Assembly: GCF_014495845.1 (NCBI RefSeq) | Contig: NZ_CP061080.1 | Span: 1,105,001-1,169,000, forward strand | Length of the DNA: 64,000 bases | Direction of reading: 5' to 3' | From: Aquibium microcysteis | Lineage (GTDB): Bacteria > Pseudomonadota > Alphaproteobacteria > Rhizobiales > Rhizobiaceae | Shown here: positions 6,149 through 40,099 of the stretch, in pieces | Numbering within the stretch: position 1 is the stretch's first letter | How the letters are laid out: each line of letters opens with the position of its first letter | Made by a program: the position numbers and the translations under genes | The notes under the pieces: model-generated | The model's input: only the letters and a program-made list of their open reading frames with translations | The model's database searches: none | Told to the model about the DNA's origin: nothing

Positions 6149-6245
6149 GCGGCGGGCTCCTGGTGAGGGTGTTGCGGGCTGGGTGGCTTCAGTGTCTGGG
6201 TTCGTCGGGGGGGGGGCGGCACCTGGGTTCGCGCGGTCGGCGCGG

Positions 6246-6424: not shown

Positions 6425-6479
6425 AGGCGCAGGCTTCGGTCGGGGTCCCGGCGCGGCAGCGGCGGAAACACAAAAGCGC

Positions 6480-18475: not shown

Positions 18476-19770
18476 ATGTCGCTCGATTGGTTCAAGACCA
18501 GAGGCTACCGCCATTTCGATCTGCCCGTAGGCGAGAAGTTCGCCAAGAAGGTTATGGACCCGAACTTCGTTCTTCGGCACTCGTTCCTACCTCTTCTGCA
18601 TTTCACGAAATCTGAGAAGCGCTATAAGAAGTGCCCGAAAACCGGGACGCGGACAATCAGCACGAAAGACCGCCCTATCAAGTATGCATCGCATCGGGAC
18701 GCTTGCATCCTCTCCTATTACGCCAGCGAGATGAACAAATTGCTGGACGCCCACTACGAGTCTGCTGGTTTGTCCGATAGCGTTTTGGCCTATCGCGCGC
18801 TCGGACGCGGAAACTATGATTTCTCGGCGGAAGTGCTTTCATTTGCCAAGTCTCATGCCCCCGTGACGATACTAGCTTTCGATGTCAGCAGCTTCTTCGA
18901 CAACCTCGATCATACCCTACTCAAGCGCCGCCTGAAGGTCGTGCTTGGCGTAGCGTCGCTCCCCGAAAACTGGATGCGCGTGTTTAGGGCGATCACCGCC
19001 TTCCACTATGTGGATATGGAGGATTTGAAGGCGGACCCCACGTTCTCCGCCCGCCTTAGGGAGAACAGTCGAGATCGGATCGCCAGCGTCGAAGAATTGA
19101 AGGCCAATGGCATCAAGTTCTACCCGAACCCGGAATTTGCAAAGGGACATCGGCGTGGCATCCCTCAGGGAACACCTATCAGCGCAGCCGCGTCAAACCT
19201 CTACATGATTGACTTTGATGCTAGGGCACGCGCCTACTGTGATAGCATCGGTGCGTTGTATCGCCGGTATTCGGACGATATTTGGTGATTTGCGAACCCG
19301 TTCATGCGGCGGCGGCAGAGGCCAAGATCATGGGCCTCATCAAAGCTGAGAAATTGGAGATTTCGCCGCACAAGACAGAAAGGACCGAATTCACAGGGAC
19401 AGGCGCTGCGGTGGTCGGGAAAGCTGCGCAGTATCTCGGATTCGTGCTCTATGAAGCAGGACCTGCCATTCGGGAAAGCTCTCTTGCTCGCCAGTGGCGG
19501 AAGATGCGAAGGGCGATGCGCCGGACGCGCATAGTCGCCGAGCGTAGCATTGCTTCTGGAAAGTCTACCAAGGCGCACACTAAGCGCTTGTATCGCCGGT
19601 TCACCCATCTGAAGGTCCGCGACGAAGAAGGTCTCCGGGTCGTGCGCAACTTCTCCTCCTACGGACGGCGCAGTGCTGCCGTGTTCGACGTTGATGAGAA
19701 GATCACTCAGCAGATCAAGCGGTTTGAACGCGCCGCATTTCGCGAGATAGACAAACTTAAGAAGTTATGA
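18476..19770 (+). pseudogene. Reverse transcriptase (defence-type, DRT/Abi-like), frameshifted in the catalytic motif
   Basis: The first frame starts at ATG 18476 with GGGGGGAG upstream and encodes 270 residues. RT motifs are present: FDVSSFFDNLDH (135-146) with the metal-binding Asp, RRGIPQGTPIS (226-236) and YSDD (265-268), then a stop at 19286. The conserved continuation (LVICEPVHAAA, then KTERTEFTG) runs in the -1 frame from 19282 to 19770. One T missing from ATATTTGG would restore a protein of about 431 residues. No maturase or intron RNA domains are seen, and the single-domain size fits antiviral UG/DRT reverse transcriptases such as DRT2. It may be inactivated, a sequencing error, or less likely a frameshifting gene. 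Confidence 0.8.
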
Positions 19771-24985: not shown

Positions 24986-25154
24986 GTCTCTCTGTCCCCG
25001 GGCTGCCGGACACTAATGCCCGCCGCCCCCCGCGAATGCAACGATTGCGCCGCCGCCTTTCGCTGGGCCGACGCCGCAGCGCGCGGATCGGCCCGCCTTG
25101 CCGTGCGCGGGTGCGACCACTATGGATGCGACTTCATCGAGGAACCATGTGGCC

Positions 25155-27761
25155 ATGGGGGACATGACGAAACGCTGGCTCTGGGGAATGGCGACGGCCA
25201 TGCTTCTGGCCGCGGCGCCGGCCGGCCGCCCCGCGATCGCGCAGGAGGCGGAGCCCGCGCCGCTCGCGGCCCCCGCGGAGGCTGACGGACCGGCCGATGC
25301 CTCCGCGCCGGACGCGACCGCTGCGCCCGCCGCCACGGCTGGCCGGATCACGGCCGCATTGTCCGTCTACGACGAGCAGAAGCCGATCATCGACGGCGTC
25401 GCCGCCAAACTCGCGACGCTGAGCGACCGCGTCGCCCGTTTCGCCGATGACGATGCGGGGCTGGTCGAGACCCGCATCGAGCTGGAGGCGCTGGCGCGAC
25501 AGGTGCTTTCGGCCGGCGTGGCGTTCCGGCCGCGTCTGCAGGAGATCAACGCCCGGCTGGAGCAGATCGGCGCGCCGCCCGGCGAAGGCCTGCCGCCCGA
25601 GCCCGAGATCACGAGCCGCGAACGCGCCGACCTGCTGCGGCAGAAGGCCGAGATCAACGCACTGATCGGCGTGGCCGAGACCCTGTCGGTGCAGATCAAC
25701 CGTCTGATCGAGGAGATCGGCACCCTGCGGCGCGACCTCTTCGCGCGCACGCTGTCGAAGCGCTACGACATCGGCAGCGCCCTCAACGCGGCGACGCTGG
25801 ACGATCTGCGCATCGAGATCCTGGCCCTGCAGCGGACCGTCACGGCCTGGCTCAGCTTCGTCGTCGCCTTCAAGCTGCAGTCGGTCCTTTTCGCCACGCT
25901 GCTGGCGCTCGCGGCGGCGGCGGTTCTCTCCTTCGGCGGCCGGCGCGTCTTCGGCTCGATGATGGAGGCCGTCGCGGGAGCGTCGCCGTCCTACCTGTCG
26001 CGGCTGTCGGTGGCCTTCTGGTCGACGCTGATGCCGTCGATCACGCTTCTCGTGTTCCTGTCGGCCACCTGGTACCTTTGCGACACGTTCAACATCCTGC
26101 GCATCGACATCGGCCAGATGCTGTCGTCGCTGTTCCAGGTGATCGCCATCGTCTTCTTCGTCAACCGCCTGGCGCGGGCCGCCCTCGGGCCGGACCGGCC
26201 GAACTGGCGGCTGGTGCCGGTCGACACGCTCTCGGCGCGGAGGCTCTACTGGCTGGCCTGGCTGACGGCCGTGACCACCGGTGCCGACTTCGTGCTGAAC
26301 CGCGTCAATCAGGTCATGGGCTCGCCGCTGTCGCTCACCATCGCCAAGAGCCTGGTGGCGACCGTGATCGTCGGCATCCTGCTGATCCTGATCGGGCTGG
26401 TTCGGCCGGCGCAGGACGACGGCCGGCCGAGACGGCTTCATTGGATCAACTGGATCTTCCTTGCGCTCGGCGTCGGCACGATGGCGGCGGCGCTGCTCGG
26501 CTACATCGGCTTCGCCCGCTTCGTGTCGCAGCAGATCGTGGTGACGGGCGCCATCGCCTCCACGATGTATATCGGCTTCCTGTCGGCCGGCGCGATCTCG
26601 GGCGAGGGCGCCTTCGTGCGCACCGCGCTCGGCGAGGCGCTGCGCCGACGCTTCAAACTGGAGGAGGTGGCGCTCGACCAGCTTGGGCTCGCGGCCAGCA
26701 TCGCCACCTACATCCTGGTCGTCTGCGTCGGTGTGCCGCTGGTGCTGCTGCAATGGGGCTTCCAGTGGGGCGACATCACCACCTGGGCGCACCGGCTTGC
26801 CACCAACATCACCATCGGCACGGTGTCCTTCTCGCTGGTCGGTATCGTCACCGGCATCGTCGTCTTCTTCGTGGGCTATTTCGTCACGCGCGGCTTCCAG
26901 GGCTGGCTCGACGGCTCGGTGCTGTCGCGCGGCAAGGTCGATGCGGGGCTGCGCAACTCGATTCGCACCGCGGTCGGCTATGCCGGCATCGCCATCGCCG
27001 CGCTCGTCGGCATCTCGGCCGCCGGGATCGACCTGTCGAACCTCGCGCTCGTGGCCGGCGCACTGTCGCTCGGCATCGGTTTCGGGCTGCAGAACGTCGT
27101 CTCGAACTTCGTCTCGGGTCTGATCCTGCTCGCCGAGCGGCCGTTCAAGGCGGGCGACTGGATCGTCGCCGGCGCCGTCACCGGCACCGTCAAGCGCATC
27201 AGCGTGCGGGCGACCGAGATCGAGACCTTCCAGCGCCAGACGGTCATCCTGCCGAATTCCGAATTGATCAATGCCGCGGTCGGCAACTGGACGCACAAGA
27301 ACAAGCTCGGCCGCATCGAGATCAAGGTCGGCGTCGCCTATGGCACCGACCCGCGCAAGGTGCATGCGCTGCTGCTCGACATCGCGAAGAGCCATCCGAC
27401 GGTGCTGAAGAACCCCGAACCCTTCGTCTTCTTCGCCAATTTCGGCGAATCCTCGCTGGATTTCGAGATCAGGCTGTTCCTGGCCGACATCACCAGCGGC
27501 CTGACCGTGCAGAACGACATCCGCTTCGCCATCGTCGAAGCCTTCGAGCGGGAGGGTATCGAGATCCCGTTCCCGCAGCGCGACCTCAATCTGAAGGGCG
27601 CCAATATCAACCTGGTCGCGACCCCGGCGGATGCCGCGCCCAGGCCCGCCCCGCCGCCGCCGGCAGGCGCTGCCACGGCCGAGGTGGTCGCGCTGCCCGT
27701 CACCCCGCGCCGTGGCCGCCGCAAGCGCCAGGACCCCGACGACGGCGACGAAGTGCTGTGA
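25155..27761 (+). CDS. MscS-family mechanosensitive channel with DUF3772-like N-terminal domain
   Basis: The 868-residue protein uses ATG 25155, preceded by GAGGAA about 10 bases upstream; ATG 25164 is possible. A signal peptide (to about AIAQEAEP) is followed by a periplasmic helical domain of the DUF3772 type (about 70-220), about ten membrane helices, and the MscS pore helix and beta domain. The pore segment GALSLGIGFGLQNVVSNFVSGL and the following AERPFKAGDWI are diagnostic. The C-terminal tail is Pro/Ala-rich and ends in a basic-acidic RRGRRKRQDPDDGDE stretch. It releases solutes upon hypo-osmotic shock. Its neighbours in osmolyte (betaine) metabolism make this fitting. Confidence 0.9.
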   Translation: MGDMTKRWLWGMATAMLLAAAPAGRPAIAQEAEPAPLAAPAEADGPADASAPDATAAPAATAGRITAALSVYDEQKPIIDGVAAKLATLSDRVARFADDDAGLVETRIELEALARQVLSAGVAFRPRLQEINARLEQIGAPPGEGLPPEPEITSRERADLLRQKAEINALIGVAETLSVQINRLIEEIGTLRRDLFARTLSKRYDIGSALNAATLDDLRIEILALQRTVTAWLSFVVAFKLQSVLFATLLALAAAAVLSFGGRRVFGSMMEAVAGASPSYLSRLSVAFWSTLMPSITLLVFLSATWYLCDTFNILRIDIGQMLSSLFQVIAIVFFVNRLARAALGPDRPNWRLVPVDTLSARRLYWLAWLTAVTTGADFVLNRVNQVMGSPLSLTIAKSLVATVIVGILLILIGLVRPAQDDGRPRRLHWINWIFLALGVGTMAAALLGYIGFARFVSQQIVVTGAIASTMYIGFLSAGAISGEGAFVRTALGEALRRRFKLEEVALDQLGLAASIATYILVVCVGVPLVLLQWGFQWGDITTWAHRLATNITIGTVSFSLVGIVTGIVVFFVGYFVTRGFQGWLDGSVLSRGKVDAGLRNSIRTAVGYAGIAIAALVGISAAGIDLSNLALVAGALSLGIGFGLQNVVSNFVSGLILLAERPFKAGDWIVAGAVTGTVKRISVRATEIETFQRQTVILPNSELINAAVGNWTHKNKLGRIEIKVGVAYGTDPRKVHALLLDIAKSHPTVLKNPEPFVFFANFGESSLDFEIRLFLADITSGLTVQNDIRFAIVEAFEREGIEIPFPQRDLNLKGANINLVATPADAAPRPAPPPPAGAATAEVVALPVTPRRGRRKRQDPDDGDEVL

Positions 27762-28133: not shown

Positions 28134-28297
28134 GCGCCTCGAAGCTTGCCCGATTTCGACCAGCCGGGTGGGCGGCGCTTCCGCGGAACGGTCTCTGCTC
28201 CATTTTCAGCTTCGCCCAGCACGCCCGGCATCCCGGTGCTCCAAGCAATTGACCTCGCGATCCGTTACACTTATTTCAGATGATGCGAGGTGATCGG

Positions 28298-28732
28298 ATG
28301 GATACCCCACATCTGAATTTCGAGAGCTTTGACGGCAGACTTCGGCGCGCCGCGGAGGACGCACTGGGTTCGCTGCGCGAACTCGGCGGAACGAGGAAAC
28401 CCGTCCCGGTGACACTCGACCCACAGATCGCCGCGGCGCTGGCCCGGTTTCTCGATGCCGCCCTCGAGAGAGGAGGAGTGGCTTACGGGCCGCTCGGGAC
28501 TGAACTGTCGCCAAGCCAGGCCGGCAAGATCCTTGGCCTGTCGCGCCCCCTCGTCGTCCGCCGGATGGAAGACGGCCGGCTGCCGTTCCATTACGTCGGT
28601 ACGCACAGGCGATGCACGCTCGGGGACGTTCTTGGGCTCAAGGCCAGGGAAGACGAGCGGAATCGGCTGATGGGCGAAATCTATCAGGACTTCGAGGAGA
28701 TTGGAGACATTGATTCAGAACCGTCGCCTTGA
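28298..28732 (+). CDS. Excisionase-like HTH antitoxin
   Basis: The 144-residue protein starts at ATG 28298, chosen because GAGGTGAT lies just upstream; ATG 28280 is also in frame. The central region PSQAGKILGLSRPLVVRRMEDGRLPFHYVGTHRR is split over a winged helix-turn-helix of the excisionase/MerR type. This fold is common in antitoxins paired with PIN_3 proteins, where it represses its own operon. The end overlaps the PIN gene start by 23 bases, showing tight coupling. Confidence 0.8.
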   Translation: MDTPHLNFESFDGRLRRAAEDALGSLRELGGTRKPVPVTLDPQIAAALARFLDAALERGGVAYGPLGTELSPSQAGKILGLSRPLVVRRMEDGRLPFHYVGTHRRCTLGDVLGLKAREDERNRLMGEIYQDFEEIGDIDSEPSP

Positions 28733-29369
28733 AGGCTTGCCGACGGTTCTGGCGGATGCCAACGTCCTGTTCTCCCAGGAACAGCGAAACCTCCTCATGA
28801 CGCTGGCCGTCGAGGGTCTTTTCCGTCTGCATCGGACAAGGGAGATCGAGGACGAGTGGGTTCGCAACCGTGCCAGGCACCTCCTGAAGGCGGGAAAAGA
28901 CGGGATGGCTCCGCTGCGTACGGCCGAGAAGATGCGGAAGGCGATACCGGATTTCGATCCCGGCCATTGGCAGCGTCATCTGGATGACACCGGTCGCACC
29001 AACTCCGGGGATCGGCATGTGGCAGCGGCGGCAATCGCCTGTGCACCTTCGCACCTTCTCACATGGAACCTGAGGGACTTCGATGCGGAGAGTTTGAAAT
29101 CTCATGGGGTCCTGATCCGCACCCCTGACGACTTCCTCTGCGATGTCTATGACGGCAGTCCGGTCATCACCTGCGAAGCATCGCGGCTCGCCTATGGTTT
29201 TGCCCGATCCGTTACCGGGCGCGTCCCGACATGGCCTGGCTATCTCGAGAAGATTGCCGGTTCCGGGCTCCCGCGGTTTGCGGAGCGGTTGGCGGGTCAT
29301 GATGGGGATGGGACCCTGGATGATCTGTCGCACGTACTACACGACGACGAAGCATCGAGCGATGCCTGA
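28710..29369 (+). CDS. PIN-domain ribonuclease toxin
   Basis: About 219 residues. TTG 28710 was chosen because GAGGAG lies 10 bases upstream, while TTG 28701 is too close to that site. The N-terminal half is a PIN nuclease: the first acidic residue lies in VLADANVLFS, and later acidic residues in TNSGDRHVAAAA and LTWNLRDFD. Such proteins cut RNA, often tRNA or mRNA, with magnesium or manganese. The C-terminal 70 residues (after DDFLCDVYD) are an additional helical part found in PIN_3 proteins. Coupled with the HTH gene it forms a type II toxin-antitoxin-like module. Confidence 0.8.
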   Translation: MIQNRRLEGLPTVLADANVLFSQEQRNLLMTLAVEGLFRLHRTREIEDEWVRNRARHLLKAGKDGMAPLRTAEKMRKAIPDFDPGHWQRHLDDTGRTNSGDRHVAAAAIACAPSHLLTWNLRDFDAESLKSHGVLIRTPDDFLCDVYDGSPVITCEASRLAYGFARSVTGRVPTWPGYLEKIAGSGLPRFAERLAGHDGDGTLDDLSHVLHDDEASSDA

Positions 29370-29558: not shown

Positions 29559-31001
29559 ATGGATGCTCGGTCGGAACAAACGGCAATACCGCTCGCCGTC
29601 GACCTCGACGGGACGCTGATCAGGACGGACCTCTTGTGGGAGGGGCTTTTCCTTCTCCTGAAGCGGAATCCGCTCTATCTCTTCATGGTCCCGGTCTGGC
29701 TGGCATCGGGTCCGGCGCGGCTGAAGATGGAGATCGCCGCGCGGGTCGACCTCGACGTCGAGTCGCTGCCCTACCGCGAGGCGGTGGTGGCACGCCTCTC
29801 CGCCGAGAAGGCGGCCGGCCGCACCATCATTCTGGCCACCGGCACGCCGCGCAAGTTCGCCGAGGCCATCGCGGCGCATCTGGGCGTCTTCGACGCGGTG
29901 ATCGCCACCGACGATCCGCGCCACAACCTCACCTCCGGCCGAAAGCGCACCCGGCTGATGAACATGTTCGGCGACGGCGGCTTCGACTATGCCGGCAACA
30001 GCCGGCACGACCTGCAGGTGTTCGACGCCGCCCGCGCCGCGATCGTGGTGGCGCCGGACCGTCATGCGGCGCGCTGGCAGGCCGAGCATGGCTGCGAACT
30101 CGTGCCCGGCACGCGCCCGACGGCACGATCCGTGCTGCGGATGCTGCGCGCCCACCAGTGGCTGAAGAACAGCCTGATCGCGGTGCCTCTGGTGCTGGCG
30201 CACGAATACATGAACCTGTCGATGATCGCGGCCTGCTTGCTCGCCTTCGTGTCGTTCAGCGCGGCCGCGTCGGCGATCTACATCGTCAACGACTTCACCG
30301 ACCTCGCCGCCGACCGCCGCCACGCCACCAAGCGGCGGCGGCCCTTCGCCAGCGCCGACCTCACCATTCCCTTCGGCCTCGGCTCGATCGGCGTGCTGAT
30401 GGCCGTCAGCATCGCTGCAGCCGCCTTCCTGCCGCCGCTGTTCTGGATGGTGCTCGCCGGCTACCTCGCCGTCACCACCGCCTATTCCTTCGGGCTGAAG
30501 CGCATGCTGCTGGTCGACGTGTTCACGCTGGCCGGCCTCTACACGATGCGCATCATCGCCGGCGCGATGGCGACCGGCACCGAGGTGTCGTTCTGGCTGC
30601 TCGCCTTCTCCCTCTTCTTCTTCCTGTCGCTGGCGCTGGTGAAGCGCTTCGTCGAACTGGACGGAACGGAGCTGTCGCGCGGCGCGCGGCTGGCCGGCCG
30701 CGGCTACCGGCCCGAGGACATCGACATCGTCGCCCAGGCCGGCGTCGCCTCCGCCTTCGCCTCCGCGCTGGTGCTGGCGCTCTACATCGACAGCGTCAGC
30801 GTCAAGGAGCTCTACCCGCATCCCTGGATGATCTGGCCGCTGGCGCCGATCGTGCTCTATCTGACGCTGCGGATCTGGGTGCTGGCGCGCCGCGGCGAGA
30901 TGCATGACGATCCGATCGTCTTCATCGCCACCGACTGGCGCAGCCAGATGGTCTCGGCGCTCGGCGGCGTCCTCCTCGTGACGGCCGCGGTGGCGGCATG
31001 A
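29559..31001 (+). CDS. HAD phosphatase-UbiA prenyltransferase fusion (polyprenyl-phosphate phosphoribosyltransferase-like)
   Basis: The 480-residue protein starts at ATG 29559 with GGGAAGGTGA upstream. Residues 1-190 are a HAD domain (VDLDGTL, nucleophile Asp15 and Asp17; ILATGTPRKF; YAGNSRHDLQVF). Residues 200-480 are an integral-membrane UbiA domain with the magnesium motif NDFTDLAAD (Asn244, Asp245, Asp248, Asp252). UbiA proteins of this type in mycobacteria (Rv3806c) attach phosphoribose to decaprenyl phosphate, and the HAD part could remove the 5-phosphate. It overlaps the DprE1-like gene by 4 bases, supporting a pentose-lipid pathway. Confidence 0.85.
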   Translation: MDARSEQTAIPLAVDLDGTLIRTDLLWEGLFLLLKRNPLYLFMVPVWLASGPARLKMEIAARVDLDVESLPYREAVVARLSAEKAAGRTIILATGTPRKFAEAIAAHLGVFDAVIATDDPRHNLTSGRKRTRLMNMFGDGGFDYAGNSRHDLQVFDAARAAIVVAPDRHAARWQAEHGCELVPGTRPTARSVLRMLRAHQWLKNSLIAVPLVLAHEYMNLSMIAACLLAFVSFSAAASAIYIVNDFTDLAADRRHATKRRRPFASADLTIPFGLGSIGVLMAVSIAAAAFLPPLFWMVLAGYLAVTTAYSFGLKRMLLVDVFTLAGLYTMRIIAGAMATGTEVSFWLLAFSLFFFLSLALVKRFVELDGTELSRGARLAGRGYRPEDIDIVAQAGVASAFASALVLALYIDSVSVKELYPHPWMIWPLAPIVLYLTLRIWVLARRGEMHDDPIVFIATDWRSQMVSALGGVLLVTAAVAA

Positions 31002-32347
31002 CCGACGGGCTCGAGAGTTTCGGCCGGGTCTTCCGCGGCCAGGCGCGCGTGCTGACGCCCGTCCAGGCGGTGACGCTGCTGGAGAGCGGGCGCGCGGCGC
31101 CGGGCAGCCTGCTCGGCTACGGCAACGGCCGCAGCTATGGCGACAGCTGCCTGAACGGCGGCGGCGCGCTGATCGACATGCGCGGCGCCGGCCGCATCCT
31201 GTCCTTCGATCCCGAGACCGGGATTTTGACGGCCGAGGCCGGCGCTTTCCTCGGCGACATCATCGCGCGGGTGGCCCGCCATGGCTGGTTCCCGCCGGTG
31301 GTGCCGGGAACGCAGCACGTGACGCTGGGCGGGGCGATCGCCAACGACGTGCACGGCAAGAACCACCACCGGCGCGGCAGCTTCGGCGCGCATGTCCTGT
31401 CGCTGACGCTGCTGCGCTCCGACGGGCGCACCACCATCTGCAGCGCCGACAGCCGGCCCGACCTGTTCCGCGCCACGATCGCCGGGATGGGGCTGACGGG
31501 GCTGATCCTGAAGGCGACGCTCCGCCTGATGCGGGTGGGCTCGCCGCATGTCGTGCAGACCGTGCGGCCCTTCGGCAGCCTGCGCGACTATTTCGACCTC
31601 GCCGAGGAGGCCGACCTGCGCAACGAATACGCCGTTGCCTGGATCGACCAGCTGGCGGGCGGCCGGGCGGCCGGACGCGGGCTGCTGCTGGCCGGCAACC
31701 ACGCCGACACGTCCGAAGGCGCCGACATCGACATGAAGCCCGGCCGGCTGTCGGTGCCGGTGCAGCCGCCTTTCACGGTGCTGAACCGGCCTTTCCTGCG
31801 GCTCTTCAACGCCGCCTACCGCTGGAAGAACGGCAGCCGCAGCGAAGCGGAATGCGTCCCGGCGAAGAGCTTCTTCTTTCCGCTCGACGGGGTCGCGAAC
31901 TGGAACCGGCTCTACGGTCCGGGCGGGCTGTTCCAGCACCAGTCGGTGGTGCCGGCGGCCGCCGCGCGGGTGGCGGTGCCGGCCATGCTGGACCTCGCGC
32001 GCCGGCGGGGGCAGGGCTCCTTCCTGACCGTCCTGAAGCGGTTCGGCGACCGGCCGTCGCCCGGCATCCTGTCGTTTCCGCGCGCCGGCTACACGCTGAC
32101 GCTGGACTTTCCCAACCGCGGGCTCGCGACGCGGCTGATGCTGGCCGAGCTCGACCGGATCGCCGTCGAAGCCGGCGGCGCCGTCAATCCCTACAAGGAC
32201 GCGCGCATGCCGGCGGATGTCTTCGAGGCGTCGTTCCCCGACTGGCGGATGCTGGAAGACCTGCGCGACCCCGCCTTCGTCTCCGATTTCTGGCGCCGCA
32301 CCGCGCTGACGCTGGACCACGGGGCGCGGGCGATCGCGGCCGAGTAG
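30998..32347 (+). CDS. DprE1-like FAD-dependent polyprenylphosphoryl-ribose oxidase
   Basis: The 449-residue protein starts at ATG 30998, overlapping the previous stop (ATGA). The FAD_binding_4 domain shows GYGNGRSYGDSCLNGGG, GTQHVTLGGAIANDVHGKN and HRRGSFGAH, which match mycobacterial DprE1. In GYTLTLDFP, Thr368 falls at the position of the Cys387 targeted by benzothiazinones in Mycobacterium tuberculosis, and Lys400 corresponds to the essential active-site lysine; both equivalences are from memory. DprE1 oxidises the ribose 2-hydroxyl to the keto intermediate in decaprenylphosphoryl-arabinose synthesis. Confidence 0.85.
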   Translation: MTDGLESFGRVFRGQARVLTPVQAVTLLESGRAAPGSLLGYGNGRSYGDSCLNGGGALIDMRGAGRILSFDPETGILTAEAGAFLGDIIARVARHGWFPPVVPGTQHVTLGGAIANDVHGKNHHRRGSFGAHVLSLTLLRSDGRTTICSADSRPDLFRATIAGMGLTGLILKATLRLMRVGSPHVVQTVRPFGSLRDYFDLAEEADLRNEYAVAWIDQLAGGRAAGRGLLLAGNHADTSEGADIDMKPGRLSVPVQPPFTVLNRPFLRLFNAAYRWKNGSRSEAECVPAKSFFFPLDGVANWNRLYGPGGLFQHQSVVPAAAARVAVPAMLDLARRRGQGSFLTVLKRFGDRPSPGILSFPRAGYTLTLDFPNRGLATRLMLAELDRIAVEAGGAVNPYKDARMPADVFEASFPDWRMLEDLRDPAFVSDFWRRTALTLDHGARAIAAE

Positions 32348-32463
32348 ACGGCCGCTGCGCGATGGTTGCGGAAGCATGAACCCGTTCGGTGCGAATTGCG
32401 GCCTTCCCCTTCACCGACGGTTTTTCTCTGTTTGCTAATGAAGGCGCGAGGAGACACGGCCCC

Positions 32464-32898
32464 ATGAAATACATCGTCTTCATCCTGTTCACGGTGATGA
32501 CCAACGCCGCCGCGCAGCTGATGCTGAAGTACGGCATGATGTCGATGGGGCCGCTGTCCTTTGCCGGCGTCAACCCCGTGCTGAAGATCCTGCAGATCGT
32601 GTTCAGTCCGTGGATCTTCTTCGGGCTCAGCGTCTTCGTGATCTCGATGGCGTCGCATCTCTACGTCCTGTCGAAGGTGGATCTCTCCTTCGCCTACCCC
32701 TTCCTGAGCCTCGCCTACGTCGCCGTCGCGATATTCGCCTATTTCGTCTTCCGCGAGGATCTGAACGCCTGGCGCGTCGCGGGGATCGGCTTCATCTGCC
32801 TCGGCACCATCCTGATCGCGCAGAGCGACCGCGGCCACGACGCCGCTGGCACGGATCTTGCCGGAGTTTCCATGCACAAGAGCGGGATGTCCCAATGA
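32464..32898 (+). CDS. Small EamA/SMR-like membrane protein, probable lipid-sugar flippase
   Basis: The 144-residue protein starts at ATG 32464. Four membrane helices are predicted: IVFILFTVMTNAAAQLMLKY, WIFFGLSVFVISMASHLYVL, the FAYPFLSLAYVAVAIFAYFV region, and VAGIGFICLGTILIAQ. Fold and size resemble ArnE/ArnF and other EmrE-like proteins. In the Arn pathway such proteins flip undecaprenyl-phosphate aminoarabinose. Next to the UbiA/DprE1 genes it may flip the polyprenyl-phosphate sugar to the periplasm. Its stop overlaps the next start (ATGA). Confidence 0.78.
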   Translation: MKYIVFILFTVMTNAAAQLMLKYGMMSMGPLSFAGVNPVLKILQIVFSPWIFFGLSVFVISMASHLYVLSKVDLSFAYPFLSLAYVAVAIFAYFVFREDLNAWRVAGIGFICLGTILIAQSDRGHDAAGTDLAGVSMHKSGMSQ

Positions 32899-33905
32899 GA
32901 CACATCATCTTCGGCGGCGACGGCTTCGTCGGACGCCATCTTGCCCCGAAACTGGTCGCCGATGGCCACGAGGTCGTGGTCGCCGACGTCACCAGAAGCG
33001 AGCTGCCGCACTACGCGACCGTGCGCTTCGCCCATTGCGACGTGACCGACAAGGCGTCGGTGCGGGCGCTGGGGATCGAGGCCGGCGACATGGTCTACAA
33101 CCTCTCGGCCAAGATGCTGTCGCCGATCCAGGTGCGGGCGAAGCGCCACGACTTCTTCTGGCCCGTGAACTTCCACGGCACGGAGAACATCATCCAGGCG
33201 ATGGACGAGGCCGGCGCGAAGAACCTCGTCCACTTCACCACCGACATGATCTACGGCCACACGGTGCAGTACCCGATGACCGAGGACCATCCGGTCGCGC
33301 CGCTCGGCGAATACGGGCTGTCGAAGCTGAAGACCGAGGAACTCGCCGCCGAATGGCGCAAGCGCGGCATGAACATCACGCTGTTCCGTCCGCGCCTGAT
33401 CATCGGGCCGGGCCGGCTCGGCATCCTGTCGAAGCTGTTCAGGCTGATCGACTGGAACCTGCCGGTGCCGATGATCGGCTCGGGGAAGAACCCCTACCAG
33501 TTCATCTCCGTCTTCGACTGCGCCGAAGCGGCAAGGCTGGCCTTCAAGGCCGGGGTGCCGAACGAGGCCTACAATCTCGGCTCGCTGAACCCGCCCTCGG
33601 TGCGCAAGCTGCTCGGCGACCTGATCGCCCATGCCGGCTCGCGCTCGATCCTGATCCCGACCCCGGGCTGGGCCGTGAAGCGCACCCTCGACCTGCTCGA
33701 TCTCATGAACATGCCGATCATGGACCCCGAGCAGTACCTGATCGCCGACGAGGACTGCCTGCTCGACGTGTCCAAGGGCAGGCGCGACCTCGGCTGGGTG
33801 CCGCAGTACCGCGACGAGGACATGCTGATCGCCGCCTATTCCGAGTATCGCGCCAGGATCGGCGGGGCGCCTGCGCCCGCCGTCGCGCATGCCCCGGCCG
33901 AGTGA
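32895..33905 (+). CDS. NAD-dependent epimerase/dehydratase (extended SDR)
   Basis: The 336-residue protein starts at ATG 32895, overlapping the previous gene by 4 bases. The N-terminal nucleotide site FGGDGFVGRH fits the GxxGxxG pattern, and the active-site region has YGLSKLK (Tyr-x3-Lys) after TTDMIYG. It could be a sugar-nucleotide or lipid-sugar epimerase/dehydratase. DprE2, the usual partner of DprE1, is a shorter classical SDR and is not seen here, so this protein may take its place or act on the attached sugar. Confidence 0.83.
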   Translation: MRHIIFGGDGFVGRHLAPKLVADGHEVVVADVTRSELPHYATVRFAHCDVTDKASVRALGIEAGDMVYNLSAKMLSPIQVRAKRHDFFWPVNFHGTENIIQAMDEAGAKNLVHFTTDMIYGHTVQYPMTEDHPVAPLGEYGLSKLKTEELAAEWRKRGMNITLFRPRLIIGPGRLGILSKLFRLIDWNLPVPMIGSGKNPYQFISVFDCAEAARLAFKAGVPNEAYNLGSLNPPSVRKLLGDLIAHAGSRSILIPTPGWAVKRTLDLLDLMNMPIMDPEQYLIADEDCLLDVSKGRRDLGWVPQYRDEDMLIAAYSEYRARIGGAPAPAVAHAPAE

Positions 33906-33917
33906 GGGAGAGACCCG

Positions 33918-35390
33918 ATGACCGTCATGACCAGACCCGACCTGACCGACGCCCGCGCCGTGATCGGCGCTCCCGAGCTGGCACCGACCCGGACGCCGAA
34001 GCCGCCGATGCTCTCGGTGGAGGATGCCAAGGCGCTCGACGTGGCGCGCATGACCGACCTGTTCAAGGCGCACCTCAACCCCGGCCAGCTGCATTTCATG
34101 AAGCTGCTCGGCTTCCACAAGGTGAAGATCGAGCGCGCCGAGGGCATGTATTACATCGACCAGAACGGCCGGAAGATCCTCGACTTCTTCGGCGGCTTCG
34201 GGTCGCTGGCCTTCGGCCACAACCATCCTCGCATCCTCGAGGCGCGCAGGCGCTTCCAGGAGGAGAAGCGGCACGAGATCGCCATCGCCTTCATGTCGCA
34301 ATATGCGTCGGCGCTGGCCCACAACATCGCCGCCTGTTCGCCGGGCGACCTCGACATGGTGTTCCTCGGCTCCTCGGGCTCCGAGGCCATGGAGGCCGCC
34401 ATCAAGGTGGCCGAGCGCGCCGCCGGACCGAAGCGGCCGAAGGTCGTCTATGCGGAGAACTCCTTCCACGGCAAGACCAAGGGCGTCCTGTCGATCACCG
34501 ACGGCCAGCTCTACCGCGGCGAGTTCAGGCTCGTCGACAACACCGTGCGCGTGCCCTTCGGCGACATCGAGGCGATCGAGCGCGCCTTCCGGGCCGATCC
34601 CGAGATCGGCGTGATCGTGCTGGAGACGGTGCAGGGCGGCGGCGGCATCATCCAGGCGCAGACGGAGTTCTGGCAGAAACTGCGCAGGCTCTGCGACCAG
34701 TACGGGGTGCTGTGGGTGGCCGACGAGGTGCAGTGCGGGCTCGGCCGCACCGGCCGCTTCTACGCCTTCGAACATCATGGCGTGGTGCCGGACGTGACCG
34801 CGCTCGCCAAGTCGCTCGGCGGCGGCAAGACGGCGATGGCGGCCATGATCGCCCGCCGCGAGGTCTACATGAAGGCCTACGGCACGCCGAAGACGGCGAT
34901 GATCCACGCCGCCGCCACCTTCGGCGGCATCGGCGAGGCCTGCATCACCTCCATCGAGGCGCTCAACGTGCTCTACGACGAGGGGCTGATCGACAACGCC
35001 GCCGACACCGGCGACTACCTGATCGAGCGGCTGCAGGCGATCGCCCGCAAGCATCCGAGCATCGTCAAGGAGGTGCGCGGCAAGGGCTTCATGGTGGGGC
35101 TCGAGTTCCACGACTTCTCGCAGACCCTGCCGATGGTGCTGCGCCCGGTCGTGGCGATGCTGGACGAGAAGCTGAAGGGCTCGCTGTCGGGCTTCATCGG
35201 CGCGCTGCTCCTGCGCGACTACGGCGTGCTGGTGGCCTTCACCGAATACAATCGCAACGTCATCCGGCTGGAGCCGCCGCTGATCTGCGAGCGCCAGCAT
35301 GTCGACCAGTTCTGCGACGCTCTCGACGGCCTCCTGTCACGCGGCATCGTCGGTATCGTCAAGGACTTCGTGAAGAGCCAGGTGAGCTGA
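33918..35390 (+). CDS. Class III PLP-dependent aminotransferase
   Basis: The 490-residue protein starts at ATG 33918, preceded by GAGGGAGAG. Class III signatures are GSSGSEAMEAAIKVAERAAG near residue 155 and the cofactor region WVADEVQCGLGRTG around residue 275. The likely Schiff-base lysine lies in TALAKSLGGGK near 300. It has an N-terminal extension of about 50 residues beyond the standard fold. In this operon it may aminate a keto-sugar or sugar-lipid intermediate. Alternatives are an ornithine- or GABA-type substrate or a hopanoid-tail aminotransferase. Confidence 0.82.
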   Translation: MTVMTRPDLTDARAVIGAPELAPTRTPKPPMLSVEDAKALDVARMTDLFKAHLNPGQLHFMKLLGFHKVKIERAEGMYYIDQNGRKILDFFGGFGSLAFGHNHPRILEARRRFQEEKRHEIAIAFMSQYASALAHNIAACSPGDLDMVFLGSSGSEAMEAAIKVAERAAGPKRPKVVYAENSFHGKTKGVLSITDGQLYRGEFRLVDNTVRVPFGDIEAIERAFRADPEIGVIVLETVQGGGGIIQAQTEFWQKLRRLCDQYGVLWVADEVQCGLGRTGRFYAFEHHGVVPDVTALAKSLGGGKTAMAAMIARREVYMKAYGTPKTAMIHAAATFGGIGEACITSIEALNVLYDEGLIDNAADTGDYLIERLQAIARKHPSIVKEVRGKGFMVGLEFHDFSQTLPMVLRPVVAMLDEKLKGSLSGFIGALLLRDYGVLVAFTEYNRNVIRLEPPLICERQHVDQFCDALDGLLSRGIVGIVKDFVKSQVS

Positions 35391-35428
35391 GCGGAACGCT
35401 TGCACGGGACAGAGAGGGGAACGGGCAC

Positions 35429-36628
35429 ATGCAAACAGTGAGTCGGACGCCGATGGACTGGGCGTTGAACGCCCCCGTCGCGGCAAGGGCCGCCTCGGTG
35501 CTGACCGGCCGGACGCTGCTCGACCGCGCAGCCGCGGCCTTCTTCGCCGCGACGATCCTGATCATCGCGCTCTACACCTGGGTGCGGCCGGACTACAACT
35601 GGGACATGGTCGCCTATGTGGCGACCGCGCTGGAGAACCGGATCGAGGATCCCGCCGAGCTGCACCGCGAGACCTGGGCGCAGATCTCGCCCGGCGCACG
35701 GCCGGCGCAGCTCTACGAGATCCAGCAGGGCAATCCCTACAACGTCCACCAGTGGAACAACCCGGTCGACTTCGAGTCGCAGCTGTCGATGTATCGGGTC
35801 AAGGTGGCCTATGTCTCCGCCCTGCGCGCGCTGGAGCCGGTGTTCGGCCTCGTCGGGGGTGCCCTGTTCGTGTCGATCGCCTCCCTCGTCGGCATCGGCG
35901 CGCTGGCGCTCCGCTGGCTCGGGGAGGAACGGGCGCTGCAGTCGGCCTTCGTGCTCGCGCCGGTGCTGGTGATCGCCGACCTGACGCACATGTCGACGGC
36001 GATCACGCCCGACATCCTGATGGCCCTGATCTCGCTGCTGGCGATCCACTGGCTCATGAAGGGTCGCGACTGGGCCGCCGGTGCGGCGCTTCTGCTGTCG
36101 GTCCTGGTGCGGCCCGACAACATCATCCTCGTCTTCGCGCTGCTCATCGCGGCGGTCGCCTTCGGATGGCGCAAGCTGCCGATGGCCGTCACCTTCGCCG
36201 CCTCGTTCGTCGCCTGCCTGCTGGTGTCGAAGCTCGGCGGGCATCCCGGCTGGTGGGCGCATTTCTACTTCTCCTGCGTCCAGATCCAGAACTCGATGAT
36301 CGGCTTCCAGCCCGACTTCTCGCTGTTCGATTTCGCCCATGGCTATGTCCGCGGCGTTCTGGTCTCGCTGCTCGACAATGACTGGCCGGCGCTGCTGGCG
36401 CTCTTCCTGGCGGGATGGGTGCTGCTCGCCCGTGCCGGCCGGATGGGGACGGGCCGGGAGAACGCGCTGATGTTCGCGCTCGCCATCGGCACGCTCGGCA
36501 AGTTCGCGAGCTTTCCGCTGCCCGACGACCGCTTCTATTTCGCCTTCATGGCGGGCATGGCCATCATTCTGGCCACCCGCTGGAACCCGAGGTTCGACCG
36601 CCTGGTCGCGAAGGAGACGACGTCATGA
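35429..36628 (+). CDS. Polytopic membrane protein, GT-C-like glycosyltransferase candidate
   Basis: The 399-residue protein starts at ATG 35429 with GAGAGGGGA upstream. About nine membrane helices are predicted. The first is AAAFFAATILIIALYTWV, followed by a loop with RPDYNWDMVAY, an acidic residue after helix 1 as in GT-C glycosyltransferases. GT-C enzymes use polyprenyl-phosphate sugars as donors, which matches the upstream genes. The protein is not similar enough to a named family for a substrate call. Its stop overlaps the FkbM gene start (ATGA). Confidence 0.7.
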   Translation: MQTVSRTPMDWALNAPVAARAASVLTGRTLLDRAAAAFFAATILIIALYTWVRPDYNWDMVAYVATALENRIEDPAELHRETWAQISPGARPAQLYEIQQGNPYNVHQWNNPVDFESQLSMYRVKVAYVSALRALEPVFGLVGGALFVSIASLVGIGALALRWLGEERALQSAFVLAPVLVIADLTHMSTAITPDILMALISLLAIHWLMKGRDWAAGAALLLSVLVRPDNIILVFALLIAAVAFGWRKLPMAVTFAASFVACLLVSKLGGHPGWWAHFYFSCVQIQNSMIGFQPDFSLFDFAHGYVRGVLVSLLDNDWPALLALFLAGWVLLARAGRMGTGRENALMFALAIGTLGKFASFPLPDDRFYFAFMAGMAIILATRWNPRFDRLVAKETTS

Positions 36629-37392
36629 CCAGCTTGCGGGAGACACTGGGTGCGGCCGCGCGGCGCGCGGTGGCGCGGGGGCTGCCGTCGGCGATCCTCG
36701 ACCGGGCACCGGCGCTGCGCGGGACGAAATTCCTCGCCGAGGCTGCCCGCCGGGCCGGCCGGCGCGGCGCGAAGCCCTTCCAGATGGTCAATGTCGGCGC
36801 CTGCGACGGGGCGCTGTTCGACGACGTGACGCCCTGGCTGCACCGCATTCCCGGCGCCCGCGCCGTGCTGGTGGAGCCCATCCCCTACAACCAGGCGCGG
36901 CTCCGGGCGAACTATCCCGATGCCGGCCGCTTCGTCATCGAGCCGGTCGCGATCACCCGCGAAAGCGGCACGATCTCGGTGAGGACCTTCGACGCGACGG
37001 CGCTCGAGTCCGGCAAGCTGCCGATCGAGTTCATCGGCTGCTCGTCGGTCACCGACACCAACCTGATGTCGGGCGTGAACGCCTGGGGCGAGGCCGATGC
37101 CAATTTCGACCGCTTCCGGCCCTATCTGAAGGACATCGAGGTGCCGTCCGAGACGCTCCAGGCGGTGCTCGACCGCAACGGCATCGACCACATCGACGCC
37201 TTCCTTGTCGATTGCGAGGGCGCGGACTGGACGGTGTTCGACCAGCTCGACATCGCCCGCTACCGACCCGGCATGATCAAGATCGAGATCGGCGCGCTGC
37301 GGCCCGACGAGATCGGCCAGGTGCTGGTGAAGCTGAAGACTGCCGGCTATCACGTCGGCCTCTATGCCGAGGACGTCTGGGCCTTCGCCTGA
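36625..37392 (+). CDS. FkbM-family methyltransferase
   Basis: The 255-residue protein starts at ATG 36625, coupled to the previous gene by a 4-base overlap. The SAM site MVNVGACDGALFDDVT is near residues 53-68, and VEPIPYNQARLRANYP continues the fold. The late motif DAFLVDCEGADWTVFDQLD is a hallmark of the FkbM group. Such enzymes often O-methylate sugars, so it could cap the glycan made by this operon. It is the last gene of the seven-gene run from 29559. Confidence 0.85.
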   Translation: MTSLRETLGAAARRAVARGLPSAILDRAPALRGTKFLAEAARRAGRRGAKPFQMVNVGACDGALFDDVTPWLHRIPGARAVLVEPIPYNQARLRANYPDAGRFVIEPVAITRESGTISVRTFDATALESGKLPIEFIGCSSVTDTNLMSGVNAWGEADANFDRFRPYLKDIEVPSETLQAVLDRNGIDHIDAFLVDCEGADWTVFDQLDIARYRPGMIKIEIGALRPDEIGQVLVKLKTAGYHVGLYAEDVWAFA

Positions 37393-37537: not shown

Positions 37538-40099
37538 ATGGCAGAGTTCCCGACCCGGGCGAAGGTCGTCATCATCGGTCTCGGCGGCATCGTGGGCGCC
37601 TCGGTGGCGCATCACCTGATCGAGCGCGGCTGGGACGACATCGTCGGCATCGACACCTCCGGCATCCCGACCGACATCGGCTCGACGGCGCACGCCTCGG
37701 ACTTCTGCTACACCACCAGCCATGACTTCCTGTCCGTCTGGACGACGCTCTACTCGATCGATTTCTACGAGAAGCTCGGCCACTACGAGCGCATCGGCGG
37801 TCTGGAGGTCGCCCGCGTCGGCGACGACACGCGCATGGACGAGATCCGGCGCAAGGTCGCATCGGCCAAGGCCTTCGGCACGCGGGCGCGGCTGATCGAG
37901 CCGGCCGAGATCAAGCAGAAGTTCCCGCTGATCGAGGAGAGCGTGGTGCAGGGCGGGCTGTGGGACCCTGATGCCGGCCTCGTCATCCCGCGCTCGCAGA
38001 CGGTGGCCGGAAAGCTGGTCGACGCCGGCGAGAAGAGCGGCAGGCTGAAGGCCTTCGCCAACACGCCGGCCACGGCGCTGAAGATCGAGAACGGCCGCAT
38101 CCGCGGCGTGGTGACGCCGCGCGGCACGATCGAGGCCGACCACGTGGTGGTCTGCGCGGGGCTGTGGGGCCGGCTAATCGCCGAGATGGCGGGCGAGGAC
38201 CTGCCGGTGATGCCGGTCGACCACCCGCTGACCTTCTTCGGCCCCTACACGGAATTCGCCGGCACCGGCAAGGAGATCGGCTATCCGCTGATGCGCGACC
38301 AGGGCAACTCGGCCTACATGCGCGACACCGGCGACCCGACGACCTCGGAAGGCGGCATGATCGAATGGGGCTATTACGAGGAGACGAACCCGCGCCTCTG
38401 CCACCCGCGCGACCTCTTGGAGAAGCACCAGGCCCGCCTGTCGCCCTCGCAGCGCGACCTCGACATGGAGCAGATCATCGCGCCGCTGGAGAAGGCGATC
38501 GAGCTGACGCCGATCCTGGCCGAGCTCGGCTATGACGAGCGCCGCTCCTTCAACGGCCTGCTGCAGGTCTCGGCCGCCGGCGGCGCCTCGGTGGGCGAAA
38601 GCCAGAAGGTGAGGGGCCTCTGGTACGCCGTCGGCATCTGGGTCAAGGACGGCCCGGGCTACGGCAAGCTGGTCGCCGACTGGATGACCGACGGGCGCAC
38701 GGAAATCGATCACGCCTCGATCGATTTCGCCCGCTTCTACCCGCACCAGCTGGAAGAGGGCTTCATCGAGGGCCGGTGCGGCGAGGCGGCGCAGAAGGTC
38801 TACAACCCTGCCGTCCACCCGCGCGAGCCCTACGCGACCGGTCGCAACGTCAAGCGCTCGCCGATGTACGAGCGCGAGGTCGAGCTCGGCGGCCATTTCA
38901 TGGAACTCGGCGGCTGGGAGCGTGCGCATGGCTACAAGGCCAACGAGCACCTGCTGGAGACGTACGGCGACCGCGTGCCGGTGCGGCAGAACGAGTGGGA
39001 CAACCGGCACTTCTGGCGCGTCTCCAATGCCGAGCATCTGGCAATGAGCGAGGATTGCGGCATCGTCAATCTCAGCCATTTCCACATGGTCGACATCGAA
39101 GGGCCGGACCATGTCGAACTGCTCGAATGGCTGTGTGCGGCGAAGATCGGCGGCGACGCCAACATCGGCAAGGGCATCTACACCCACTTCCTCGACGACG
39201 AGGGCATGGTGCGCGCCGACTTCACCGTCTTCCGCATGGAGGACCGCTGCCGCCTCGTGAACGGCGCCGACGCCGGCCCGCGCGATCTCTATTACATGAA
39301 GCGCGTGGCCGAGGATCGCGGCCTCGACGTCACCATCACCGACACCTCGGAAAAATACATCACCATCGGCATCTGGGGGCCGAATGCCCGCGCGACGCTG
39401 AAGAAGGCAGTCGCGGATCCGGCGGGCCTCGATCCCGAGAACTTCCCCTTCGCGGCCATCAAGCCGGTCGAGATCGCCGGCCGGTCCGTCACCGCCTTCC
39501 GCATCTCCTATGTCGGCGAGCAGGGCTGGGAACTGCACATGCGCTACGAGGACGGCCTCGCCGTCTGGGATGCGCTGCGGGCGACCGGCGTGATGGCCTT
39601 CGGCGTCGAGACCTACGCCAATTCGCGGCGCATGGAGAAGAGCCTGCGGCTTCAGAACGCCGACCTTCTGACCGAATACAACCTTATCGAGGCCGACCTC
39701 GCCCGCCCGAAGGTCAAGGAGGCGGATTTCCGCGGCAAGGCGAAGCACCTCGAATACAAGGCGCGGCCGCACCAGCCGGCCATGCTGTGCACGCTGGTGA
39801 TGACCGACAACGTCGATTCGAAGGGCGTCGCCCGCTATCCCGTCGGCTCGATGCCGGTGATGGATCCGGCGACCGGTGAGACGCTGGTCGACGACCTCGG
39901 CCGCCGCTCCTTCACCACTTCGGTCGCCTACGGCCCGACCATCGGAAAGAACATCGCGCTCGCTTATCTGCCGCACGCCTGGTGCGAGGTGGGCCGCCGG
40001 CTGCAGGTGGAGTATTTCGGCGAGACGTTCCCGGTGGAAGTCGCGGCGGTGGGGTATCGGCCGCTGTACGATCCGGAGAACGCGAAGCCGCGGAGCTGA
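37538..40099 (+). CDS. FAD-dependent oxidoreductase with GcvT domain (third demethylase-like protein)
   Basis: The 853-residue protein starts at ATG 37538. The flavin site is VVIIGLGGIVGASVAHHLIERG (split around residue 10-30), and STAHASDF replaces the WHAAG motif of the two copies at 3704 and 8825 while keeping the histidine. The C-terminal half is a GcvT-like domain (RISYVGEQGWELHMRYEDGL). It is therefore a more distant member of the dimethylglycine/sarcosine dehydrogenase group, and the substrate may differ. It is monocistronic, lying between the pentose-lipid operon and a DUF1194 gene. Confidence 0.86.
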   Translation: MAEFPTRAKVVIIGLGGIVGASVAHHLIERGWDDIVGIDTSGIPTDIGSTAHASDFCYTTSHDFLSVWTTLYSIDFYEKLGHYERIGGLEVARVGDDTRMDEIRRKVASAKAFGTRARLIEPAEIKQKFPLIEESVVQGGLWDPDAGLVIPRSQTVAGKLVDAGEKSGRLKAFANTPATALKIENGRIRGVVTPRGTIEADHVVVCAGLWGRLIAEMAGEDLPVMPVDHPLTFFGPYTEFAGTGKEIGYPLMRDQGNSAYMRDTGDPTTSEGGMIEWGYYEETNPRLCHPRDLLEKHQARLSPSQRDLDMEQIIAPLEKAIELTPILAELGYDERRSFNGLLQVSAAGGASVGESQKVRGLWYAVGIWVKDGPGYGKLVADWMTDGRTEIDHASIDFARFYPHQLEEGFIEGRCGEAAQKVYNPAVHPREPYATGRNVKRSPMYEREVELGGHFMELGGWERAHGYKANEHLLETYGDRVPVRQNEWDNRHFWRVSNAEHLAMSEDCGIVNLSHFHMVDIEGPDHVELLEWLCAAKIGGDANIGKGIYTHFLDDEGMVRADFTVFRMEDRCRLVNGADAGPRDLYYMKRVAEDRGLDVTITDTSEKYITIGIWGPNARATLKKAVADPAGLDPENFPFAAIKPVEIAGRSVTAFRISYVGEQGWELHMRYEDGLAVWDALRATGVMAFGVETYANSRRMEKSLRLQNADLLTEYNLIEADLARPKVKEADFRGKAKHLEYKARPHQPAMLCTLVMTDNVDSKGVARYPVGSMPVMDPATGETLVDDLGRRSFTTSVAYGPTIGKNIALAYLPHAWCEVGRRLQVEYFGETFPVEVAAVGYRPLYDPENAKPRS

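Follow-up and report, generated by a model that had tools for sequence, protein, structure and literature searches.

Which pentose is made by an operon that begins like the mycobacterial route to decaprenylphosphoryl arabinose and carries an aminotransferase gene where the gene of the reductase DprE2 would be expected? This question is raised by a window of 64,000 nucleotides, the whole stretch of DNA analysed, from Aquibium microcysteis (NZ_CP061080.1), in which seven tightly packed genes, all on the + strand, span positions 29559-37392:

29559..31001, + strand: g1, HAD-UbiA fusion, 480 aa, candidate phosphoribosyl phosphatase and polyprenyl-phosphate phosphoribosyltransferase
30998..32347, + strand: g2, DprE1-like FAD oxidase, 449 aa, presumed substrate polyprenyl-phosphoryl ribose
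32464..32898, + strand: g3, ArnE/ArnF-like small membrane protein, 144 aa, presumed flippase
32895..33905, + strand: g4, GalE-like extended SDR, 336 aa, candidate pentofuranose epimerase
33918..35390, + strand: g5, class III PLP aminotransferase (AT), 490 aa, presumed lipid-pentose transaminase and DprE2 stand-in
35429..36628, + strand: g6, GT-C glycosyltransferase, 399 aa
36625..37392, + strand: g7, FkbM-family methyltransferase, 255 aa

The distances between successive genes from g1 to g7 are -4, 116, -4, 12, 38 and -4 bp, three adjacent pairs overlapping by 4 bp. The arrangement is not a matter of chance, because all seven genes are kept in the same order and direction in 46 of the 80 named loci, and the possibility of a one-genome curiosity is ruled out. 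The sequence-only reading of this DNA had proposed a seven-gene operon of these families, and all seven co-directional open reading frames were found, with assignments upheld by domain models and, for g6, by structure prediction. The operon is flanked by genes of an MscS-type channel and a sarcosine dehydrogenase-like protein, both present in 76 of 96 loci searched and uninformative on the sugar acceptor.

In our opinion, the operon rather probably yields a polyprenyl-phosphate-linked 2-amino-2-deoxypentofuranose, which is used outside the cytoplasmic membrane. According to this proposal, g1 would convert PRPP into polyprenyl-P-ribose, g2 would oxidise C2 to a ketone in the manner of DprE1, and g5, in place of the DprE2 reduction that leads to arabinose, would transaminate this 2-keto sugar, probably with an amino acid as the donor. 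The product would be a 2-amino-2-deoxypentofuranosyl-P-polyprenol of ribo, arabino or, with participation of the SDR, C3-epimeric configuration; g4 would probably invert C3, or set the stereochemistry in another way, and this step would operate in most lineages and be dispensable in some. Then g3 may aid flipping of the lipid-sugar, g6 would move the sugar to an acceptor, and g7 would place an O-methyl group onto the sugar or the glycan. The analysis shows gene content, conservation, co-occurrence, active-site residues and the predicted GT-C fold; the substrates, the aminated carbon, the configuration and the acceptor are all inferred.

The first step has a close biochemical precedent. Both PF12710 and PF01040 match g1 above cut-off, as does NF006088 (616.5 bits), and the DPPR synthase models remain at or below 138 bits, under their cut-off. 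The motifs DLDGT at 15 (D15) and NDFTDLAAD at 244 (N244/D245/D248/D252) follow each other in the same HAD-then-UbiA order and with near-identical residue spacing as the catalytic residues D18 and N247/D248/D251/D255 of ORF15, which, according to the available part of Kelly et al. 2024 (PMC11127046), was biochemically shown to produce polyprenyl-P-ribofuranose. Thus, g1 has the HAD (PRP)-UbiA (PPPRS) fusion, the catalytic Asp and the NDxxDxxxD motif by which such proteins are recognised in that work. The same authors report m/z 435 for farnesyl-P-ribose, with membranes supplied with farnesyl-phosphate and PRPP.

The oxidase g2 contains an FAD_binding_4 domain, and its best NCBIfam model is DprE1 (NF053785), with 324 bits against a cut-off of 500 bits, a value reached in none of 249 genomes of the host's order and none of 337 genomes of its class. 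Against the solved mycobacterial DprE1 4aut it scores 222 bits. The residue of M. smegmatis DprE1 is present at 11 of 14 active-site positions compared, the differences being F320->V, N385->T and C387->T. Ten of these 14 positions (Y60, H132, K134, N135, W230, R325, Q334, Q336, K367 and K418) hold the mycobacterial residue in all 25 aligned AT- or SDR-linked oxidases, including K418, H132, Y60, Q334 and Q336, which are among the catalytic residues of DprE1. All 25 rows have Thr at position 385 and Thr or Ala at position 387, as do most DprE2-linked alphaproteobacterial oxidases. The ORF15-like g1 and the DprE1 residues of g2 support the earlier suggestion that these two proteins open a polyprenyl-P pentose route.

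The central point is the exchange of DprE2 for the aminotransferase. A sample of 76 DprE1-like loci was taken, regardless of neighbouring genes, from 249 genomes of the order and 337 of the class (Alphaproteobacteria), several of the loci lying on short contigs (L142: 3.2 kb). An adjacent same-strand DprE2 gene without the AT was found in 59 of the 76, the AT without DprE2 in 13, neither gene in four (L216, L167, L174 and L217), and the two together in none. This exclusion gives a Fisher p of 1.6e-11 with kinship ignored, a value that overstates independence because the AT-linked rows are mostly close relatives. The label DprE2 was given above 95 bits, and the three weakest loci so labelled score 100 bits (L147, located where its contig ends), 132 bits and 170 bits; the best scores of the DprE2 profile in AT loci were 61-68 bits (L041, L144, L226) and came from other SDRs. 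The profile was built on 18 of the same class loci and is circular for those 18; the absence of DprE2 from AT loci and the check with NCBIfam are free of this circularity. In the latter, model NF053786 found nothing better than 66 bits across the host genome, by which a DprE2 encoded elsewhere in it is ruled out, and nothing above 85.3 bits in the 13 AT genomes, with 166-180 bits in three of three control genomes picked for a DprE2 locus. The local absence of DprE2, from which its replacement had been proposed, therefore extends genome-wide in the host.

The AT is also closely bound to the oxidase. A DprE1-like gene occurs with it in 12 of 12 AT genomes of the order and in 79 of the 80 named AT loci, the exception (L120) having only 205 bases before the AT. 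Among 398 genomes sampled over the phylum, the AT occurred in seven, every one in the host's order. As for the four loci with neither gene, L216 carries g1, g3, the SDR and a g2 oxidase that looks intact, so that in its lineage something else, perhaps the SDR, would deal with the ketone. The oxidases of the other three, L167, L174 and L217, have altered active-site residues, and the link between oxidase and reductase is thus not a strict one.

The aminotransferase itself matches PF00202 (Aminotran_3) with 291 bits, and its residues K298, D269 and R450 are invariant in 12 of 12 sequences. In the tree, its clade (support 98/97) stands apart from an HpnO-type clade (100/99). The AT of locus L144 shares 69% identity with that of the window and is accompanied by an oxidase (410 bits to the DprE1 model) from a well-separated clade, other rows of which carry DprE2 or, once, neither gene; hence, two clearly distinct DprE1 lineages have this AT as a partner. 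The nearest other ATs found in the order occur in 21 genomes, 18 of which were checked, and HpnH was present in all 18 and within about 7 kb of the HpnO-like AT in 11. From this gene neighbourhood, these ATs are probably HpnO, which, according to the available part of PMC12583986, aminates ribosylhopane, is frequently encoded outside the hpn cluster and is hard to distinguish from other aminotransferases of its family. HpnO and g5 have in common the aminotransferase class and, presumably, a lipid-borne ribose as substrate, and the closest relatives found in the order are probably HpnO proteins. However, g5 belongs to a separate clade, its gene sits beside a DprE1 gene, and no match to HpnH (TIGR03470) was found in the host genome at E <= 1e-50, with 18 of 18 comparison genomes positive; the identity of g5 with HpnO is ruled out on the grounds of the separate clade and the lacking HpnH.

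At locus L174, another class III AT adjoins a very divergent DprE1-like gene without DprE2. It was grouped with the AT clade at 100/99, and the AU test rejected its joining the HpnO type (p 0.01) and kept a position outside both clades (p 0.15). Because of its long branch and this permitted outside position, L174, though suggestive, was not added to the count of two.

Other readings of the middle steps differ in what they assign to g4, g2 and g5. The protein g4 matches PF01370 (Epimerase) with 133 bits, has the motifs GGDGFVG (GxxGxxG) and YGLSK (YxxxK), and its best solved relative is a UDP-glucose 4-epimerase (69 bits). If g4 were a functional DprE2, reducing the 2-ketone to an ordinary pentose (arabinose or its epimer), the AT would have another task, for instance the amination of another position or the supply of an amine for a later decoration. 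Reduction of sugar ketones is common among SDRs, the gene is found in 11 of the 13 AT genomes as against none of six comparison genomes, and L216 has the oxidase and the SDR without AT or DprE2; yet g4 belongs with the epimerases of GalE type, unlike the classical SDR DprE2, and two AT genomes (G161 and G183, drafts, 100% and 91% complete) have no such SDR at E <= 1e-30, although oxidase and AT lie close together in them and no good DprE2 is present. Fourteen sampled loci of the AT/SDR type contain the AT in 13 cases and the SDR in 12, which makes the AT a slightly more constant substitute. We consider a DprE2 function of g4 unlikely. Of the earlier idea that SDR and AT jointly replace DprE2, the part concerning the AT is supported, and the SDR is missing genome-wide from two of the 13 AT genomes.

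Amination at another carbon, giving a 3- or 5-amino-pentose on the lipid, would follow if the regiochemistry of g2 was shifted or if the SDR made a C3 ketone. The best-known class III sugar aminotransferases target terminal aldehydes: HpnO acts on a ribose aldehyde, and the neomycin enzymes likewise on terminal aldehydes. With its score below the curated cut-off, g2 could differ from DprE1 in regiochemistry, but it keeps the DprE1 active-site residues, and its two main changes are common to DprE2-linked oxidases. The AT stands also beside the oxidase of another lineage in L144, and the SDR is absent from two AT genomes, so that this reading seems improbable to us. An ordinary D-arabinofuranose system, similar to noeCHOP or DprE1/DprE2, with an unrelated aminotransferase inserted nearby, would explain the first two steps and the transport and transfer genes, which match arabinose systems. 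Such an insertion is very hard to reconcile with the constant company of AT and DprE1-like gene and with the lack of any locus combining AT and DprE2, and we give it hardly any weight. An amino-pentose, guessed at earlier, thus appears the probable product from the comparative evidence.

The remaining genes would serve export, transfer and methylation. EamA (PF00892) matches g3 above cut-off, and the ArnE and ArnF models give 34.5 and 50.5 bits, below their equivalog cut-offs of 92 and 99 bits. The gene turned up in loci with the AT or the SDR, whereas it was found in none of the 59 DprE2 loci, and the protein corresponds to the small ArnE-like putative flippase of Kelly et al. 2024. For g6, the PMT_2 match is weak and below cut-off; its predicted structure has a GT-C-like fold with ArnT as the best match, which supports the GT-C character suggested from the sequence. 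The methyltransferase g7 matches PF05050 (54.3 bits, cut-off 22.7) and TIGR01444 (39.7 bits, cut-off 37.7).

Several known systems resemble the operon in part. The mycobacterial DPA pathway (DPPR synthase, DprE1, DprE2, Emb/Aft GT-C) has the same entry chemistry, oxidase family with catalytic residues and a GT-C enzyme, but in the host no good DprE2 is found, the phosphatase is a fused HAD, and Asn385 and Cys387 are replaced by Thr. The Arn pathway, which places 4-amino-4-deoxy-L-arabinose on lipid A, likewise uses a polyprenyl-phosphate aminopentose, an ArnE/F-like transporter and an ArnT-like GT-C fold; in it, a UDP-sugar is aminated by an aminotransferase of a different class, whereas the window's operon would aminate on the lipid a sugar derived from PRPP. 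The three-component extracytoplasmic pentofuranose systems of Citrobacter youngae O1/O2, covering ribose, xylose (SDR) and arabinose (DprE1/E2) in the available part of Kelly et al. 2024 (PMC11127046), share the HAD-UbiA protein for polyprenyl-P-ribofuranose, the small ArnE-like flippase, a GT-C transferase (of family GT136 in those systems) and a pentose-changing GalE-like SDR. There, ORF13 is an SDR epimerase converting Rib to Xyl, from which analogy the role of g4 is guessed. The DprE1-like oxidase and class III aminotransferase are additions of the window's operon, and the word "aminotransferase" has no occurrence in the main text of that paper. Rhizobial noeCHOP, proposed earlier as a partial precedent, is similar in the steps from polyprenyl-P-ribose to arabinose in an alphaproteobacterium, but serves D-arabinofuranosylation of Nod factors, with no aminotransferase named in the operon in the available part of PMC5080398; the systems of Kelly et al. 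and, for the AT, HpnO are closer.

In the accessible part of the open-access literature, no apparent pathway paper on aminopentose polyprenyl phosphates or 2-amino-2-deoxypentofuranoses was found, and no paper mentioning DprE1 was among the matches listed for DprE1, aminotransferase and polyprenyl. The operon is a variant of known lipid-linked pentofuranose systems that was not described earlier. The chances are about even that it makes an unreported polyprenyl-phosphoryl 2-amino-2-deoxypentofuranose by on-lipid transamination of the DprE1 ketone, with AT and HpnO in a wider class III lipid-pentose group and DprE2 replaced beside at least two DprE1 lineages.

The DprE1/DprE2 chemistry has been studied mainly as an arabinose-making drug target. 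If the proposal is true, the DprE1 ketone would be a branch point, from which reduction leads to arabinose and transamination to an amino-pentofuranose, and a DprE1 gene without DprE2, adjoining this class III aminotransferase, can serve as a genomic marker for further cases. The product would then be a bacterial surface sugar of a type not reported before, and positively charged furanose decorations would be predicted on the surface of Mesorhizobium and its relatives, much as enteric bacteria use 4-amino-arabinose to alter the charge of their envelope.

The operon lies in the window (G000:C1:1105001-1169000) of a host genome of 6.1 Mb, assembled as a single contig. The seven-gene set claimed in the sequence-only reading, with its HAD-UbiA protein and DprE1-like oxidase, was recovered in full, with these domain matches:

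29559-37392, + strand: seven ORFs (ORF reading)
g1, + strand: HAD and UbiA domains (domain search)
g2, + strand: FAD oxidase, top model DprE1 (domain search)
g3, + strand: EamA/ArnF-like small membrane protein (domain search)
g4, + strand: extended SDR (domain search)
g5, + strand: class III aminotransferase (domain search)
g6, + strand: PMT_2 match under the cut-off (domain search)
g7, + strand: FkbM methyltransferase (domain search)

Intergenic gaps from g1 to g7 are -4, 116, -4, 12, 38 and -4 bp. The operon's neighbours, at 25098-27761 and 37538-40099 of the window, encode an MscS-type channel and a sarcosine dehydrogenase-like protein; of 96 loci searched, 76 have both, which makes the site look old in the host's family. 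Directly upstream (28280-29369, + strand), a small HTH_17-like protein (match under the cut-off) overlaps a 222-aa protein without a Pfam match, in a layout resembling a toxin-antitoxin pair. Elsewhere, a low-G+C patch (18374-19770, + strand; 56-58% vs about 69%) holds an ORF that looks reverse-transcriptase-like by eye (18374-19288) and continues in another frame (19282-19770).

All DprE1-like loci of the order and class samples (36 + 41 - 1 = 76) were examined for replacement of the reductase DprE2 by a g5-type aminotransferase (AT). DprE2 adjoins the oxidase on the same strand, without AT, in 59 of the 76 loci, AT occurs without DprE2 in 13, and the two were found together in none; one locus (L216) has a g4-type SDR only, and three (L167, L174, L217) have neither AT, SDR nor DprE2. 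The exclusion of AT and DprE2 gives a Fisher p of 1.6e-11 over rows that are related, not independent, and a recount of loci left all main counts unchanged. Genome-wide, the NCBIfam DprE2 model reached no more than 85 bits in any of the 13 AT genomes and 166-180 bits in all three control genomes, which had been chosen for having DprE2. The absence of DprE2 claimed earlier holds genome-wide, and its replacement by the aminotransferase is supported. It is this replacement, whatever the number of swap events, that carries the odds given to the main reading, in which lipid-carried ribose would be oxidised by g2 and the ketone aminated by g5.

The closest named relative of g5 is from Aquibium sp. 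ELW1220 (97%), which marks the host as Aquibium-like. AT at least 68% identical to g5 is present in 12 of 249 genomes of the order, the host included, next-best ATs there being at most 36% identical. All 12 carry a DprE1-like gene, within a few kb of AT in the 11 non-host genomes, and DprE1 was found in none of six AT-less members of the host's family. The class sample (337 genomes) added only G451, whose locus L144 has g3, SDR, UbiA, DprE1 and AT contiguous. Among 80 named loci fetched with an AT profile (mostly Mesorhizobium, plus Aquibium, Nitratireductor and others), g1 to g7 are complete and in order in 46, g6 is present in 74 and g7 in 52, and DprE1, g3 and SDR are present in 79; at the sole exception, L120, just 205 bases precede AT.

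In g1, an N-terminal HAD domain carrying DLDGT at residue 15 is followed by a C-terminal UbiA domain carrying NDFTDLAAD at 244. The same domain order is found in ORF15 of Citrobacter youngae (nucleophile D18, motif N247/D248/D251/D255), which was shown to produce polyprenyl-P-ribofuranose (Kelly et al. 2024, PMC11127046). At L144 and L226, AT loci of other families, the UbiA protein (286-287 aa) is without the HAD part.

g2 scores 222 bits against solved mycobacterial DprE1. With the DprE1 model of NCBIfam it reaches 324 bits, under the model's cut-off of 500, which was reached by none of the order (n=249) or class (n=337) genomes. Fourteen active-site positions, in M. tuberculosis numbering, were mapped on M. 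smegmatis 4aut in an alignment of 88 rows. Among the 25 rows linked to AT or SDR, ten of these positions match the mycobacterial enzyme without exception, position 369 is Phe (23) or Leu (2), 320 is variable, Asn385 is replaced by Thr throughout and Cys387 by Thr (23) or Ala (2). DprE2-linked oxidases have Thr at 385 in 52 of 59 and Ala at 387 in 52 of 59, so that the AT-linked oxidases are barely separable from them by these residues.

The SDR half of the claimed replacement is slightly less constant than AT. SDR occurs in 11 of 13 AT genomes, the two exceptions (G161 and G183) being draft assemblies; L216 (3733-8001: HAD-UbiA, DprE1-like, EMR, SDR) is without aminotransferase or DprE2. It is in such exceptions that the model is weakest. 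No SDR was found in five AT-less members of the host's family and G572, and the top match in the 59 DprE2 loci was just 46 bits. g4 is GalE-like, and since a GalE-like protein, ORF13, was shown to determine xylose rather than ribose (Kelly et al., PMC11127046), the most natural guess is that g4 would act as a C3 epimerase, the main rival being that it would act as a ketone reductase.

The nearest ATs beyond g5's clade in the order (32-36% identity) are probably HpnO: HpnH is present in all 18 genomes checked, of 21 holding only such ATs, it lies within about 7 kb in 11 of the 18, and L223, one such HpnH-linked locus, has alongside a protein that we take, from its sequence, to be squalene-hopene cyclase-like. 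HpnO converts ribosylhopane to aminobacteriohopanetriol; against this identity, hpnO frequently lies away from the hpn cluster and is difficult to distinguish from related aminotransferases (PMC12583986). g5 differs from HpnO in that the AT tree sets its clade (98/97) apart from the HpnO-type clade (100/99) and the host has no HpnH, so that g5 should have no ribosylhopane substrate. All 12 ATs compared share K298, D269 and R450, the arginine presumably, from the enzyme class, binding the carboxylate of an amino-acid donor. At L174 (4905-13824), from another member of the class, a divergent DprE1-like oxidase has as neighbours a distant class III aminotransferase, a GT2 and two PMT_2-like proteins, with no DprE2; the same arrangement may have been reached here independently.

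Ribose, xylose and arabinose systems are described by Kelly et al. (PMC11127046), the word 'aminotransferase' being absent from the main text of the paper. Aminopentose lipid donors were not found in the openly accessible literature, a weak absence as most subscription papers lie outside it.

The phylogeny of the DprE1-like protein, proposed in the sequence-only reading as a check, places the window and L144 oxidases in different parts of the tree. That of L144 falls in a 17-row clade whose remaining rows have DprE2, apart from one with neither gene, and the window's clade sits among DprE2-linked oxidases (tree as drawn, midpoint root). The AT/SDR label requires four changes, at least three forced by well-supported branches, one of them being L217. 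This orphan DprE1-like gene of the AT clade (5218-6567, - strand), with active-site residues 132, 134 and 367 changed, is perhaps decaying. ATs form a single clade, with L144 at its base, so that two histories would fit: repeated replacement of DprE2 by AT, or exchange of one oxidase for another beneath AT. Whichever history holds, AT is paired with two DprE1 lineages.
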